Assembly (NCBI RefSeq): GCF_000816145.1
Contig: NZ_CP007141.1
Span: 1,860,001 to 1,924,000 of the forward strand
Length of the DNA: 64,000 nt
From: Pseudothermotoga hypogea DSM 11164 = NBRC 106472
GTDB taxonomy: Bacteria > Thermotogota > Thermotogae > Thermotogales > DSM-5069
Direction: 5' to 3'
Shown: positions 10,051 through 56,649 of the stretch, in pieces
Layout of the letters: every line of letters starts with the position of its first letter
How positions within the stretch are numbered: position 1 is the stretch's first letter
Notes under the pieces: generated by a model
What the model saw: only the letters and a program-made list of their open reading frames with translations
Told to the model about the DNA's origin: nothing
Database searches by the model: none
Program-made: the position numbers and the translations under genes

Positions 10051-11334
10051 ATGCTCTGGATGCTTGTAGCGTTTCTGGTTTTCATGCTCTTGGGTATGCC
10101 CATTGCGTTCGCCATAGGTATTGCGGGCTTCATATGGTTCTTGCAACATCCATACCTTCCGATCACCATCCCAATTCAGTTGGCGCTTTCACAGATCATC
10201 AATTTCACGTTGCTCGCCATTCCGATGTTCATCATCGCAGGCAGTGTGATGAATTCGGCGGGTGTGACGAAACGTTTGCTGGATTTTGCGTCCTCACTCG
10301 TGGGACACATGAGAGGTGGATTGGGACAGGTTTCAGCCGTCTTGTCAACCTTGATGGGCGGCGTGTCGGGTTCAAGCATCGCCGATGCAGCGATGGAGAC
10401 AAGGATGCTTGGTCCGGAGATGTTGAAGAGAGGCTATCCTCGAGGTTTCGCTGTGGCTGTCAACGTCTGGACGAGCTTAATCGTGCCGATAATACCGCCC
10501 GGTATAGCATTCATTCTGTATGGTACGATCGGTCAAGTTTCTATCGGAAGGTTGTTTGCGGCAGGTATCATACCGGGTTTGTTGCTCATGATGATCTACA
10601 TGTTCGTTATCCACTTGGTTGCGAAACGACTTGGGCTTCAACCTGAGAGGGAGAAGCGAGCTTCGAGGAAAGAAATCGCGCGAGCTTTGTCGGAGAGCAT
10701 TTGGGCTTTGATATTCCCCGTGTTGTTGATACTGGGTCTGAGAACGGGCATCTTCACACCATCAGAAGTCGGTTCCTTCGCAGTGATTTACGGCTTGATC
10801 GTCGGATTTTTGATACACAGAGAGATGAACCTGAAACAGTTCTTCAGCGAGACACTCGAGAACTCAATCGGGGACATTGGCGCAGTCCTGGCGATCTTAG
10901 CGATGTCGAACATCTTCAGTTACGGCATGGTGTGGGAGAGGGTGCCCGAAACGTTAGCCAGTTTCCTGCTCGGTATATCGAACAATCCTTACGTACTGAT
11001 GATAATCATCATGTTGTTCTTGATCTTCGCTGGCCTCTTCATCGATGCCACAGCTCTGATCCTGATGACCACCGCAGTGCTTCTGCCCGTGGCGCGAAGG
11101 TTGGAAATAGATCCAGTGCACTTTGGTCTGGTCTTCATACTCTCCGCGGCGATGGGTAACCAGACCCCACCCGTTGGCGCTTCGATGTACGCAGGCTGCA
11201 GCGTCCTGGGAGCCACCTTGGAAGAGTACACGAAGGCGTCCTGGCCGTTCTTGATAGCCACGATCATCGTAATACTTCTCGTCATTTTCTTCCCACAACT
11301 TTCACTGTTGATACCGAAACTCATATTCGGTTGA
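10051..11334 (+). CDS. dctM: TRAP transporter large permease DctM
   Basis: This is the large subunit of the TRAP transporter, the ion-coupled channel, with 427 residues and about twelve hydrophobic segments. Family landmarks are the N-terminal MLLGMPIAFAIG and LMGGVSGSSIADAA near residue 100. The C-terminal part contains GLFIDATALILMTTAVLLP and MGNQTPPVGASMY. AAGGAGG is placed for the ATG used here; a TTG 21 bases upstream would begin inside dctQ. The gene completes the dctPQM set. An SDR oxidoreductase follows 13 bases later, so transport and catabolism are linked in one transcript. Confidence 0.95.
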   Translation: MLWMLVAFLVFMLLGMPIAFAIGIAGFIWFLQHPYLPITIPIQLALSQIINFTLLAIPMFIIAGSVMNSAGVTKRLLDFASSLVGHMRGGLGQVSAVLSTLMGGVSGSSIADAAMETRMLGPEMLKRGYPRGFAVAVNVWTSLIVPIIPPGIAFILYGTIGQVSIGRLFAAGIIPGLLLMMIYMFVIHLVAKRLGLQPEREKRASRKEIARALSESIWALIFPVLLILGLRTGIFTPSEVGSFAVIYGLIVGFLIHREMNLKQFFSETLENSIGDIGAVLAILAMSNIFSYGMVWERVPETLASFLLGISNNPYVLMIIIMLFLIFAGLFIDATALILMTTAVLLPVARRLEIDPVHFGLVFILSAAMGNQTPPVGASMYAGCSVLGATLEEYTKASWPFLIATIIVILLVIFFPQLSLLIPKLIFG

Positions 11335-52434: not shown

Positions 52435-54999
52435 TCAGCTGAAGTCTTTGTTCTCGAAGACAACGATCGTTCTCTCGTCTCCCTGGGTGGTTCGCCATTT
52501 ACCTAACACAAAGTAATTCAGACCGAAGTGATCGAACAATTCTTTCTCCGTTTTGAAGTGCTTCTGCATTTCCTTTATCCAACCCTGCCTGTAAAGTCCA
52601 GATTCCTCAGGGTGCCCCGAGTCGAAAACAAGAAAGCGACACTGTTTGAAGAGCCTGTGGAAAACCTCATCTGCCTTGTCTTTACCATGGTTGTAAAGTA
52701 TGTGGTGATAAACGCTCAGGAAAAGTATCACATCGGCTATCTGTGGGAGATCTTGCTTAACTACGTCCAACTGTATGAATTTGTAGTCAGGGGGTAGGTT
52801 GAGCTTCTCCCTTGGTGAGATATCTACACCCAGAACGTCCACACCATACATTAGAAAACGATAGGAAAGCTCACCTCTGTTGCAACCTATGTCTATGAGA
52901 GTTTTAGGTTTCACTCTGAGAACAAACTTTTCGACAATTTCTTTTTTCGCCTGATCGATGGTGCTTTGATAGCTTCCATCAAACGCTCCGACATACGCCT
53001 CCTGGATATATTTCACGTAAACCGGCAAAGCTTCTTGCAAATAAGGTTGCCAATACGTTATCAAGATTCCTAGAGCACCTTCGTCGCCGACGAACTGATT
53101 TGATACAACGTACGTTGGAACTGTTCTCATACCCAGAAACTTTGCGATTGCGACTCTGTGGTGGCCACTAGCAACTAAAAGAGAAACGCTATCAGGGATT
53201 CTAACTTGTTGTCGCTTCAAAGGATCAAAAACCATCAGGTTTCCATCGTTGTGAAAAGCGACTATGGGTTTCAATATTTTTCCTGTGCGTTTGATCGACT
53301 CAAAAACTTCGAGAAACTTCGAAATGATCGGTTCTGGTGGCTGCTTGTAGTATCCCTTTTCATGGAGATCCTTGAGAAATGCGTAGTAAACGGTTTTCTG
53401 ATATGGTATCCCTTTTCCAATGAACTCCTCCAAGAAATCGATGATCAAAGGCACAACGTTGTTGATGAGGAGATCCGTCGGAACCTGATTAATGAAAGCC
53501 TTAGCTTGGTTGAGTTTCATCTCAAGTTCATCTTCATAGTTGCTGATGTTCACTTTGATACCATACTCGAGAGGATTAAAGATTCTATAGCTCTTCCTGA
53601 TTTCACAATTGATTTCCGAAACTGTGTTGGAGGATACGGATACACGTTGAAGCAAGACTCTGAAAATCTCGGAGATTTGTTTTTCTAGGGAACAAACATC
53701 CTCAATGAATCTTCTATACCTTTCAGAATCATAATCATTGGACGTTATCATCTCGACGGCTTCATCAACTGTGTTGAAGATCCAGTCTTTCGGATAGAAT
53801 TCCTCTGCCACATAAAAGTTGTGGATGACTGGTTTTATACCTTTCGCCATGGCTTCCATAATAGCTACTCCATAGCCTTCGTGTATACTGGTCGAGAGAA
53901 AGAAGTTTTTATTTTCCAGAAACGAATTGATGTCGTCTTTCCACCCGACAAAATGAAACTTTTCTCTTATTCCCATCCTCTCAAGGATGTATCCAATATA
54001 CCTGTACATACGCTCATCTTGAATGGTGCCAGCCCATTGAAGGTTGTACCGTTCGTCCAGTGAGACAAGTTTTTTCAGAATTTGCACAGCTAAAACTGGA
54101 TTCTTTTTATAATTGAAATGTCCTGCAAAAGCGAGATTTGGTCCCTTGGATCTTTGCTTAAAAGTGTACTTGTTCAAATCCAAGCCATTATGGATTAAAG
54201 TCCTTTCTTTTCGTTTTAAATGATCACAATTCTGAATGGCCGTCTCTAAAACGTTTTGAGCAACAAAGATCACTTCGTCAATTTTTTCCCATTTTATAGA
54301 TCTGAGAAAATCCGGTCTGAGAGATTCATAACCATGAAGTCTGCACAGAATCCGTTTCCCCATCTTCTCCAACTTGTTCGTGATCTCCACCGCCAGCTCG
54401 TTCGCCCATTCGAGCCAGACGATGTCGGCCCACTTGTAGGCTTGAACTATCTGATTTCCATCTGTCGTCACGATCAATTTCACTTCAAAAACGTTCGAGA
54501 GCACCTGTGCGATGTCCTTTATGAAGTTGTCCAAACCTGGCAAGCAAAAGATCGCGATTTTCTCAGGCCTTTTGAATTTTATCTTTGCTTGCTCGAACTT
54601 CTCCTTCATCTGTGGTAGGTCGCTCAATTGTGCGGCTTTCGAATAATAATGCAACGCCATGGGAACGTTGTTCTGTGCGAGTTGTGTGTCTCCCAAAAGA
54701 TCGTACACTTCCCAAGTTTTGTCTTTGATCCTCGTCAGATAGCGCCAAGATTCGAAGAAATTCTTCTTCTCGAACAAGACCTTCGAAAGATTGAAAAGCA
54801 CATCGTCGTTGGTCGGATCGAGCTTCAAAGCTTTTTGAAAGTGTTCCAAAGCTTTGTCCAACTCATTTTCTTGGTAGAAAAGAACTCCAAGCATGTTGTG
54901 CCTCATCGACTCGGGTTCGATCTTTTGGGCGAGCTCCTTTGCCTTGGAAAAATCTTTCAAACTGACACACCTTTCGATCTCTCTAAACAGTTCTTCCAT
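52435..54999 (-). CDS. TPR / GT4 glycosyltransferase / ParB-like / SAM-methyltransferase fusion
   Basis: This 854-residue protein combines several domains. Residues ~1-140 are TPR-like repeats (ELDKALEHFQKALKLDPTND). Residues ~148-430 are a GT4 glycosyltransferase with donor motif HEGYGVAIMEAMAKG. A helical linker follows. Residues ~575-640 resemble a ParB/sulfiredoxin-type domain, with SGHHRVAIAKFLGMRTVP. Residues ~690-854 are a SAM methyltransferase with motif I TLIDIGCNRGELSYRF. It lies directly after the flagellin gene, so it may glycosylate and methylate flagellin or another surface glycan. The middle of the gene is visibly richer in A+T than its neighbours, a sign of transfer. The ATG is seven bases after GAGG. 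Confidence 0.85.
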   Translation of the reverse strand: MEELFREIERCVSLKDFSKAKELAQKIEPESMRHNMLGVLFYQENELDKALEHFQKALKLDPTNDDVLFNLSKVLFEKKNFFESWRYLTRIKDKTWEVYDLLGDTQLAQNNVPMALHYYSKAAQLSDLPQMKEKFEQAKIKFKRPEKIAIFCLPGLDNFIKDIAQVLSNVFEVKLIVTTDGNQIVQAYKWADIVWLEWANELAVEITNKLEKMGKRILCRLHGYESLRPDFLRSIKWEKIDEVIFVAQNVLETAIQNCDHLKRKERTLIHNGLDLNKYTFKQRSKGPNLAFAGHFNYKKNPVLAVQILKKLVSLDERYNLQWAGTIQDERMYRYIGYILERMGIREKFHFVGWKDDINSFLENKNFFLSTSIHEGYGVAIMEAMAKGIKPVIHNFYVAEEFYPKDWIFNTVDEAVEMITSNDYDSERYRRFIEDVCSLEKQISEIFRVLLQRVSVSSNTVSEINCEIRKSYRIFNPLEYGIKVNISNYEDELEMKLNQAKAFINQVPTDLLINNVVPLIIDFLEEFIGKGIPYQKTVYYAFLKDLHEKGYYKQPPEPIISKFLEVFESIKRTGKILKPIVAFHNDGNLMVFDPLKRQQVRIPDSVSLLVASGHHRVAIAKFLGMRTVPTYVVSNQFVGDEGALGILITYWQPYLQEALPVYVKYIQEAYVGAFDGSYQSTIDQAKKEIVEKFVLRVKPKTLIDIGCNRGELSYRFLMYGVDVLGVDISPREKLNLPPDYKFIQLDVVKQDLPQIADVILFLSVYHHILYNHGKDKADEVFHRLFKQCRFLVFDSGHPEESGLYRQGWIKEMQKHFKTEKELFDHFGLNYFVLGKWRTTQGDERTIVVFENKDFS

Positions 55000-55048: not shown

Positions 55049-55080
55049 AAAAACAAAAGGCGGGCGTGAGCCCGCCTTTT
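55049..55080 (-). terminator. Intrinsic terminator after the flagellin gene
   Basis: An 11-bp stem (AAAAGGCGGGC with GCCCGCCTTTT) closes a 4-base loop and is followed on the minus strand by a T-rich stretch. It ends the highly expressed flagellin message, so the fusion gene downstream probably depends on read-through or its own promoter. Confidence 0.88.
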
Positions 55081-55095
55081 GTGTCCTTGGAAGTG

Positions 55096-56649
55096 TTATC
55101 GCAACAGCTGCAGCACCGTCTGTGGCAATGCGTTGGACTGTGCCAACATTGCCATGCTGGATTGCATCAGGATCTGTTGTTTGGTGAACTCCATCATTTC
55201 TTTGGCCATGTCCGCATCTCTGATTCGAGACTCTGCAGCGGTCAAGTTCTCTGCAGCTACTCCAAGGTTGCTTATCGTGTGTTCTAGCCTGTTCTGCACT
55301 GCTCCAAGTCTTGCGCGTGCAGTGCTGACTTTGTGGATCGCTGCGTCTATGACCATTATAGTTCTTTCCGCACTGTTCTGATCCGTGACGCGCAAAGAGT
55401 CTTCCGTAAGTCCAAGCGCGGCTGCTCTCATGTCGTCCAATCCAGCTATCATGTTGTGTCCTTCGTTCGCTCCTATCTGGAAGATCAACGAAGTGTCTTC
55501 ATACCACCTTCTTTCCGCCCTCACAACACCGCTGTCTATCACTTCTTCCAATGGCAAGGCTCCACCGAAGGAGTTGATGTTGTAAACATTAGTTAGCCAA
55601 GTGAAGATAATACCCCTGGGACCAGCTGCAATGTTTATGTTGAATGATTGATCGGTAGTATTGTAGCTAATGGATCCTGAGACTGTCCCATAGATAGCCA
55701 GACCATCGCTGAAATCAACTATGGGTGGGGTCGCAAGGCCTGTCTCGCTGAAGTAGTTGATTCTCACGTCCAGAAGGCTCGTGGCGGCTCCAGCAAACTG
55801 GCCCACCTCAACGACGTAGGAACCTTCGTTCACATCTTCAAAAGCTAAGATGAGCGATGTTGCAAGCGTGACTCTGAACGAATTCACAACGGCAGTTACC
55901 GTATTGATGCCTATGCTGGCATCAGAAACAACGAATTCGAATCTGAGACCACCGACTGTCGTTGCATATGACACAAAGTTTGCCTCATTAGACACAGTGA
56001 ACGAAGCCACGGTTGCCCCGCCAGCGAGTAAAGACACGGTTGCACCTGAGATTTGTATTGACAATGCTCCCAAAGATCTGCCAGCAATGTTAAAGCTAAT
56101 CACTCCACTGCCAGTAACATTGGAACCGCTTGCAAGTTCGATCCCTCTTAGGTTGGCAGACTGCGAAGCTTTCAGATCGAAGTTACCACCGGTCACCACT
56201 TTCACGTCTGGATTGTGCCTGAAGCTTTCTATCTTCCCATCCAAAAGCTTCATCGTGTTGAACTCGGTCGTTCTGGCGATCCTGTCGATCTCTTCTCTGA
56301 GTTGGTCGAGCTCGGCTTGGATCTGGTTCCTATCAACGTTGGTGTTGGTGTCGGATGCGGCTTGAACTGCGAGCTCTCTCATCCTCTGAAGGATCGAATG
56401 GACCTCTGTCAGTGCTCCTTCTGCTGTTTGGATCAACGATATGGCGTCCTGTGCGTTCTTGACTGCCATGTTCAAACCTCTGATCTGGCCTCTCATCTTT
56501 TCGCTTATCGCAAGACCAGCTGCATCGTCTCCCGCTCTGTTGATCCTCAGACCAGAGGAGAGTTTCTCGAGCGTTTTGCTCATCGAGTACTGTGTCTCAC
56601 TCATGCTCCTCCAAGCGTTCAATGCGTTGATGTTGTGGTTGATACGCAT
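55096..56649 (-). CDS. fliC: Flagellin
   Basis: Flagellin of 517 residues is the filament subunit, exported by the flagellar type III system. The conserved D0/D1 N-terminus begins MRINHNINALNAWRSM and contains SSGLRINRAGDDAAGLAISE. The C-terminal D1/D0 part contains RARLGAVQNRLEHTISNL and ends ALPQTVLQLLR. The centre (~170-400) is a serine-, threonine- and asparagine-rich variable domain that could carry glycans. GGGAGGTG precedes the ATG. Expression is set by a sigma-28 promoter about 80 bases upstream. Confidence 0.96.
   Translation of the reverse strand: MRINHNINALNAWRSMSETQYSMSKTLEKLSSGLRINRAGDDAAGLAISEKMRGQIRGLNMAVKNAQDAISLIQTAEGALTEVHSILQRMRELAVQAASDTNTNVDRNQIQAELDQLREEIDRIARTTEFNTMKLLDGKIESFRHNPDVKVVTGGNFDLKASQSANLRGIELASGSNVTGSGVISFNIAGRSLGALSIQISGATVSLLAGGATVASFTVSNEANFVSYATTVGGLRFEFVVSDASIGINTVTAVVNSFRVTLATSLILAFEDVNEGSYVVEVGQFAGAATSLLDVRINYFSETGLATPPIVDFSDGLAIYGTVSGSISYNTTDQSFNINIAAGPRGIIFTWLTNVYNINSFGGALPLEEVIDSGVVRAERRWYEDTSLIFQIGANEGHNMIAGLDDMRAAALGLTEDSLRVTDQNSAERTIMVIDAAIHKVSTARARLGAVQNRLEHTISNLGVAAENLTAAESRIRDADMAKEMMEFTKQQILMQSSMAMLAQSNALPQTVLQLLR

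Follow-up and report, generated by a model that had tools for sequence, protein, structure and literature searches.

A TPR-GT4 protein with exchangeable C-terminal modules beside flagellin in Thermotogota, and its predicted glycan-methylating form in Pseudothermotoga hypogea

Described systems and the gene in Pseudothermotoga hypogea

By domain layout, the closest described counterpart of the protein reported here is FlmG of Caulobacter crescentus, in which a TPR domain binds flagellin and a GT-B domain transfers the sugar, both being needed (PMC7591256). The two proteins share an N-terminal TPR part fused to a GT-B glycosyltransferase and a link to flagellin, but FlmG has 596 aa and transfers pseudaminic acid, and the accessible portion of that report describes no C-terminal tailoring module. 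Hypervariable glycan genes beside flagellin and TPR-bearing flagellin glycosyltransferases are also known from the Clostridium flagellar glycosylation islands and Maf proteins (PMC13317340); whole genes vary in those islands, whereas here a single open reading frame changes its C-terminal half at a fixed place. A purely evolutionary analogy is offered by polymorphic toxin systems (PMC3482391), which likewise keep their N-terminal part and exchange the enzymatic domains at the C terminus, although the domains exchanged here are glycan-tailoring enzymes and nothing suggests immunity genes or secretion. For the C-terminal half in P. hypogea, the relevant comparisons are WbdD of Escherichia coli O9a, which phosphorylates a terminal mannose and then methylates the phosphate through a site formed by H132, H133, and R203, each of them required (PMC3482155), and the fusions of ParB-CTPase folds to S-adenosylmethionine (SAM) methyltransferases (PMC12704722). 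Our searches of the open-access literature yielded no report that deals with these Thermotoga genes or describes flagellin glycosyltransferases exchanging their C-terminal part.

The stretch of DNA analyzed as a whole (the window) is 64 kb long and covers bases 1,860,001-1,924,000 of the single-contig, 2,165,416-bp genome of Pseudothermotoga hypogea DSM 11164, a member of the Thermotogota. The gene starts with an ATG at 54999, preceded by a GAGGTG ribosome site, and its stop is at 52435. The gene, its neighbor, and the features of its N-terminal half are as follows.

52435..54999, minus strand: whole gene, 854 aa, TPR-GT4-ParB/Srx-methyltransferase (open reading frame, Pfam scan)
55096..56649, minus strand: flagellin, 517 aa, 96 bp upstream of the gene (Pfam Flagellin_N 6e-50, Flagellin_C 6e-29)
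55049..55082, minus strand: terminator-like hairpin between the two genes (13 pairs, loop of 4, then TTTT; read by eye)
54574..54999, minus strand: TPR solenoid, residues 1-142 (Pfam TPR_2 1.2e-13)
53650..54567, minus strand: GT4 (GT-B) glycosyltransferase, residues ~145-450 (Glycos_transf_1 3.1e-14, residues 286-402)
53854..53880, minus strand: EX7E motif of the GT4 domain, E374 to E382 (both Glu invariant in 40 of 40 aligned sequences)

The original prediction placed TPR, GT4, ParB/Srx-like, and SAM methyltransferase modules in one protein, and all four are supported, by Pfam, by AlphaFold with Foldseek and VIA, and by the match to WbdD. The TPR part was modeled with pLDDT values of 84-94 and reached VIA Z scores of up to 19.4 against TPR proteins; these values come from the full-length AlphaFold model, which was built from 3 sequences and whose VIA search was filled by TPR proteins. 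Membership of the second domain in GT4 is clear from PF00534 (53.3 bits against a cut-off of 26.4), and W195, R220, H222, and K299 are among the further residues invariant in all 40 sequences.

The enzyme gene had also been described as directly following flagellin. The two genes do lie on the same strand 96 bp apart, but the hairpin with its T tail, which is absent from the list of a consensus scan, stands between them and makes cotranscription doubtful. The hairpin suggests that the two genes are not obligatorily cotranscribed in this genome, where the enzyme gene may form a separate transcription unit. The other neighbors, named from their translations, are a pullulanase-like gene and sugar-transport genes, and no polysaccharide cluster was found beside the gene among the open reading frames of the window.

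Linkage to flagellin across Thermotogota

The TPR-GT4 half is present in 49 of 103 Thermotogota genomes, and Flagellin_N in 81 of the 103. All occurrences fall in genomes with flagellin (49/81, against 0/22 without it; Fisher p 5e-8, a value inflated by relatedness). For example, the sole flagellin-bearing genome of genus g8 has the TPR-GT4 half, which is missing from the three genomes of that genus without flagellin. Homologues also recur next to flagellin, as the original prediction expected: a flagellin gene lies within 5 kb of the TPR-GT4 gene in 26 of 40 loci, often within less than 500 bp, where chance would give about 1-2% with a few flagellin genes in 2 Mb. Among plasmid relatives of the GT4 domain, no flagellin appeared in the neighbors listed.

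Adjacency is not universal, however, since flagellin is out of reach of the TPR-GT4 gene in genus g32 and at some other loci; where no flagellin is nearby, the acceptor could be another surface protein. Such loci would also agree with a different target altogether, the outer sheath (toga) or a secreted polysaccharide, with the neighborhood of flagellin acting as a neutral hot spot for surface genes, and several of the C-terminal tails described below do resemble capsule or teichoic-acid enzymes. We consider a polysaccharide target distinctly unlikely given the co-occurrence with flagellin, the recurrence of adjacency across several families, and the lack of a polysaccharide cluster beside the gene. 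Instead, the protein is probably a cytoplasmic, FlmG-like flagellin O-glycosyltransferase with a plug-in tailoring tail, which in P. hypogea is predicted to methylate the glycan. A sugar-adding, methylating flagellin enzyme is a reasonable prediction, and the extended and methylated flagellin glycan originally proposed is likewise a sensible one.

The ParB/Srx-methyltransferase half is much rarer than the TPR-GT4 half. When the domain order of the window was sought in other Thermotogota genomes, as had been proposed, this half was found in four genomes only (those of the window and of loci L034, L035, and L006). A search of 84,980 species genomes gave one match to the tail, L073, on a 4,202-bp contig of a Thermotogaceae MAG that resembles L006. 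In IMG/VR there were only 3 weak matches and on plasmids a single one, in each case to the methyltransferase part alone, and no phage sequence matched the whole protein.

The ParB/Srx-fold domain and the methyltransferase

The features of the C-terminal half in the window are listed here.

53005..53586, minus strand: ParB/Srx/SerK-fold domain with inserted helices, residues 472-665 (AlphaFold, Foldseek, VIA; PHROGs)
53155..53169, minus strand: S-G-H-H-R, residues 611-615, the GxxR nucleotide signature (P-motif, Box II; S611, G612, and R615 invariant in four copies)
52450..52953, minus strand: class I SAM methyltransferase, WbdD-like, residues 683-850 (hmmsearch to WbdD E 2.3e-5; global hhalign)
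52702..52707, minus strand: H765-H766, aligned with WbdD H132-H133 (hmmsearch and hhalign alignments)
52471..52473, minus strand: R843, aligned with WbdD R203 (hhalign and MAFFT agree)

No Pfam model detected residues 472-665 even at an E value of 5, and NCBIfam was likewise silent. PHROGs gave sub-significant matches on the SGHHRVAIAKFLG box, mostly to ParB-like families, with which weak ParB-like matches among phage proteins agree. The ParB region has pLDDT values of 20-45 in the full-length AlphaFold model (3 sequences), and modeling residues 472-665 alone from 4 sequences gave a pLDDT of 82.9 and a pTM of 0.82. In a Foldseek search of the PDB, the best 44 matches of this model were all ParB/Noc/KorB/PadC proteins, sulfiredoxin, SerK (with its Pyrococcus furiosus homologue 1vk1), or SbnI, the best with an E value of 4e-4. 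VIA-align Z scores reached 6.8 and dropped to 2.2 beyond the ParB/Srx/SerK superfamily; although Z values under 8 are modest, nearly all matches listed belong to that one superfamily. The modeled structure thus supports a ParB/Srx fold for this region, in line with the ParB/Srx-like domain first read from the sequence. Searching the PDB by sequence matched only interferon gamma, which we dismissed as a fortuitous hit to helical sequence, at odds with the result of the fold search.

As in the described ParB-CTPase-fold fusions, a ParB fold that keeps the GxxR signature is followed by a Methyltransf_23-type methyltransferase, although the fusions covered in the available part of PMC12704722 are mostly from phages or prophages or related to DNA or RNA, with no glycosyltransferase fusion described there, and the domain in P. 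hypogea escapes every Pfam ParB model. The Pfam match of the methyltransferase itself is weak (Methyltransf_23, 2.3e-5, residues 682-770). Its best PDB match and closest solved relative is WbdD, with 22% identity over the 150 columns of the global hhalign alignment, for which the WbdD query was identical letter for letter to the PDB sequence. The residues corresponding to the phosphate site of WbdD, H765, H766, and R843, are kept in every copy of the tail that reaches that far, R843 in 3 intact copies. WbdD and the present protein thus resemble each other in this methyltransferase and in its joining to a nucleotide-binding partner domain. However, the substrate of WbdD is the O antigen and its other parts are a eukaryote-like kinase and a coiled coil, whereas a ParB/Srx fold and a TPR-GT4 half stand in their place here, and the Pfam scan of the protein found no kinase domain. 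Methylation of DNA by the tail was considered and rejected, as its sequence has no NPPY/DPPY motif.

From these aligned residues, a glycan methylphosphate would be a fair hypothesis. In its specific form, the ParB/Srx domain would act as a sugar kinase (compare SerK and SbnI), with a kinase fold different from that of WbdD, and the WbdD-like methyltransferase would then methylate the phosphate. The kinship with WbdD, the alignment of H132, H133, and R203 with H765, H766, and R843, and the invariant GxxR motif are consistent with such a cap, and the ParB fold does include ADP/ATP-dependent serine kinases, SerK itself being among the best structural matches. On the other hand, the structural model is that of a single domain without ligand, the O8 WbdD methylates a sugar without phosphate, and the His-His pair is common in other methyltransferases as well (PMC3482155). 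Similarity to SerK in sequence is slight, as model NF053625 matched the protein with an E value of 0.005 and 16 bits against a cut-off of 380. Furthermore, the position of Glu30 of SerK (in KPHE), the catalytic base, in line with the E30 mutant entries among the structural matches, is occupied by V, E, R, or K, depending on which of the four hand-aligned copies is considered, and the D that precedes GHHR in SerK is replaced by S in P. hypogea. The catalytic Glu is therefore not conserved, and judged by sequence a SerK-type kinase mechanism is not supported for the ParB/Srx domain; we regard the methylphosphate cap as possible but doubtful.

The safer reading is a predicted NTP-binding role by analogy with the fusions of ParB folds to SAM methyltransferases, some of which bind ATP (PMC12704722). 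The domain might then serve only as an NTP-binding regulator or substrate-positioning module, and the methyltransferase would act directly on a sugar hydroxyl by O-methylation. The lack of the SerK catalytic residue fits direct methylation, as do the plain methyltransferases without a ParB domain in other tail classes, but it leaves the conserved phosphate-site residue R843 unexplained. We would place it close to an even call, slightly on the doubtful side. Both the cap and direct O-methylation are sub-cases of the flagellin O-glycosyltransferase with a tailoring tail, which is our preferred reading.

Exchange of the C-terminal half and the proposed mechanism

The original prediction took the order of the four modules as distinctive. 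That order is present, but the conserved unit is TPR-GT4, and the ParB/Srx-methyltransferase half is just one of many tails that can follow it. The change takes place at the end of the GT4 domain.

53641..53682, minus strand: module junction, codons ~440-453, where sister loci of other genomes diverge into unrelated C-terminal modules (DNA comparison of sister loci)

All-against-all BLAST and Pfam place about ten unrelated glycan enzymes in this slot. Beyond residue ~450, the tails with methyltransferases are the ParB/Srx-methyltransferase itself, a methyltransferase with a GT2, a methyltransferase alone, two types in which a methyltransferase follows a domain that we call X, and FkbM (L061). 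The transferase tails are GT2, GT2-GT2, three GT4-like types, a polysaccharide pyruvyltransferase (L055), and a CDP-glycerol glycerophosphotransferase (L068). The tail of L058 has no Pfam match, and nine loci have no C-terminal module, which implies that the core function does not depend on the tail. Domain X, a conserved domain without a Pfam name, takes up about the first 130 tail residues before two different methyltransferases (L038, L044, L047, L056, and L062).

DNA comparisons locate the exchange precisely. Loci L061 and L062 are 98% identical over more than 4 kb upstream and 96% identical through nt 1320 and then share nothing, one continuing into FkbM and the other into X-methyltransferase. 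Between L035 and L036, identity is 89% to nt 1313, nothing is shared beyond, and similarity returns at 85% some 150 bp ahead of flagellin. In six more sister pairs, the break falls at about nt 1338-1360 after correction for N-terminal extensions. When the 16 tail labels (counting "none") are mapped onto a maximum-likelihood tree built from the TPR-GT4 halves, they require 25 changes, against a minimum of 15 and a shuffled mean of 29.1; the ParB/Srx-methyltransferase label accounts for 4 changes, all forced by well-supported branches. The A+T-rich middle of the window gene, earlier read as a sign of acquisition, was confirmed: G+C is 34% at codons 251-300 and about 42% for the whole gene, compared with 50% in both flagellin and the next gene. 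However, low G+C alone is no proof of acquisition, and the A+T-rich stretch (codons ~250-600) overlaps the breakpoint of the sister loci only partly. The sharp breakpoint is the better evidence.

Misassembly or faulty gene calling could in principle mimic such diversity, as L061 ends close to a contig edge and L035 contains a frameshift and a stop. However, the breaks recur at one place within single-contig genomes (G058, G037, and G039) and large contigs, and most tails are intact in-frame open reading frames, making an artefact highly improbable. In L035 (genome G059, a close relative), the TPR-GT4-ParB/Srx-methyltransferase gene is broken by a frameshift at the junction (10080-10100 of the locus) and by a stop at 11157-11160, before the last strand of the methyltransferase, and its sister L036 has another tail. 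We rejected the view that the ParB/Srx-methyltransferase reading frame of L035 is a gene of its own, since a frameshifted, decaying fused gene is the better reading.

In the glycosyltransferase that we favor, the N-terminal TPR solenoid would capture flagellin in the cytoplasm, and before export the fused GT4 domain would attach to it a first or early sugar. With flagellin still bound, the glycan just added would then be modified by the C-terminal module. In P. hypogea the NTP-binding ParB/Srx domain and the WbdD-like methyltransferase would yield a methylated glycan, perhaps methylated on phosphate, and in other Thermotogota second glycosyltransferases, other methyltransferases, or a pyruvyl- or glycerophosphotransferase would act from the same slot. 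The pattern of the L035/L036 and L034/L039 pairs, a variable slot between two conserved blocks, points to replacement in one step by homologous recombination; the slot would be refilled by recombination between TPR-GT4 sequence and, where flagellin follows the gene, flagellin sequence. Because flagellin precedes the enzyme in the window, the right-hand anchor must differ there. The data show the domain architecture, the fold, the linkage to flagellin, the fixed junction, and the swaps, from which flagellin as the acceptor, the catalytic activity, the sequence of steps, and any selective cause such as phage escape are inferred.

Taken together, a dedicated Thermotogota plug-in locus for flagellin glycan variation, with a TPR-GT4 scaffold and an exchangeable enzyme recombining between two conserved anchors, and in P. 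hypogea a new ParB/Srx-WbdD-like enzyme that builds a methylphosphate cap, is a combination that we think rather unlikely to hold in full. If it did, a single open reading frame by flagellin would be a modular device for altering flagellar surface chemistry with about ten interchangeable natural enzymes, and these thermophile flagellin-tailoring enzymes could be tested directly. It would also offer a natural experiment on why flagellar surfaces vary, evasion of flagellum-binding phages being one example, and would point to a use of the ParB/Srx fold in glycan chemistry, one that we did not find described in the open-access literature.

Variation extends beyond the tail. Loci L037 and L041 share 92% identity over residues 1-215 but 44% over 215-430, with about 91% in the tail, and a second exchange segment of this kind inside GT4 (residues ~215-430), with flanks about 90% identical, is seen among L037, L041, and L042 and between L047 and L062. 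This segment swap suggests that donor or acceptor specificity may be exchanged too. At L065:6864-9461, a sulfatase-like domain stands N-terminal to TPR-GT4, and immediately after it comes another TPR-GT4 gene, whose tail is GT4-like.
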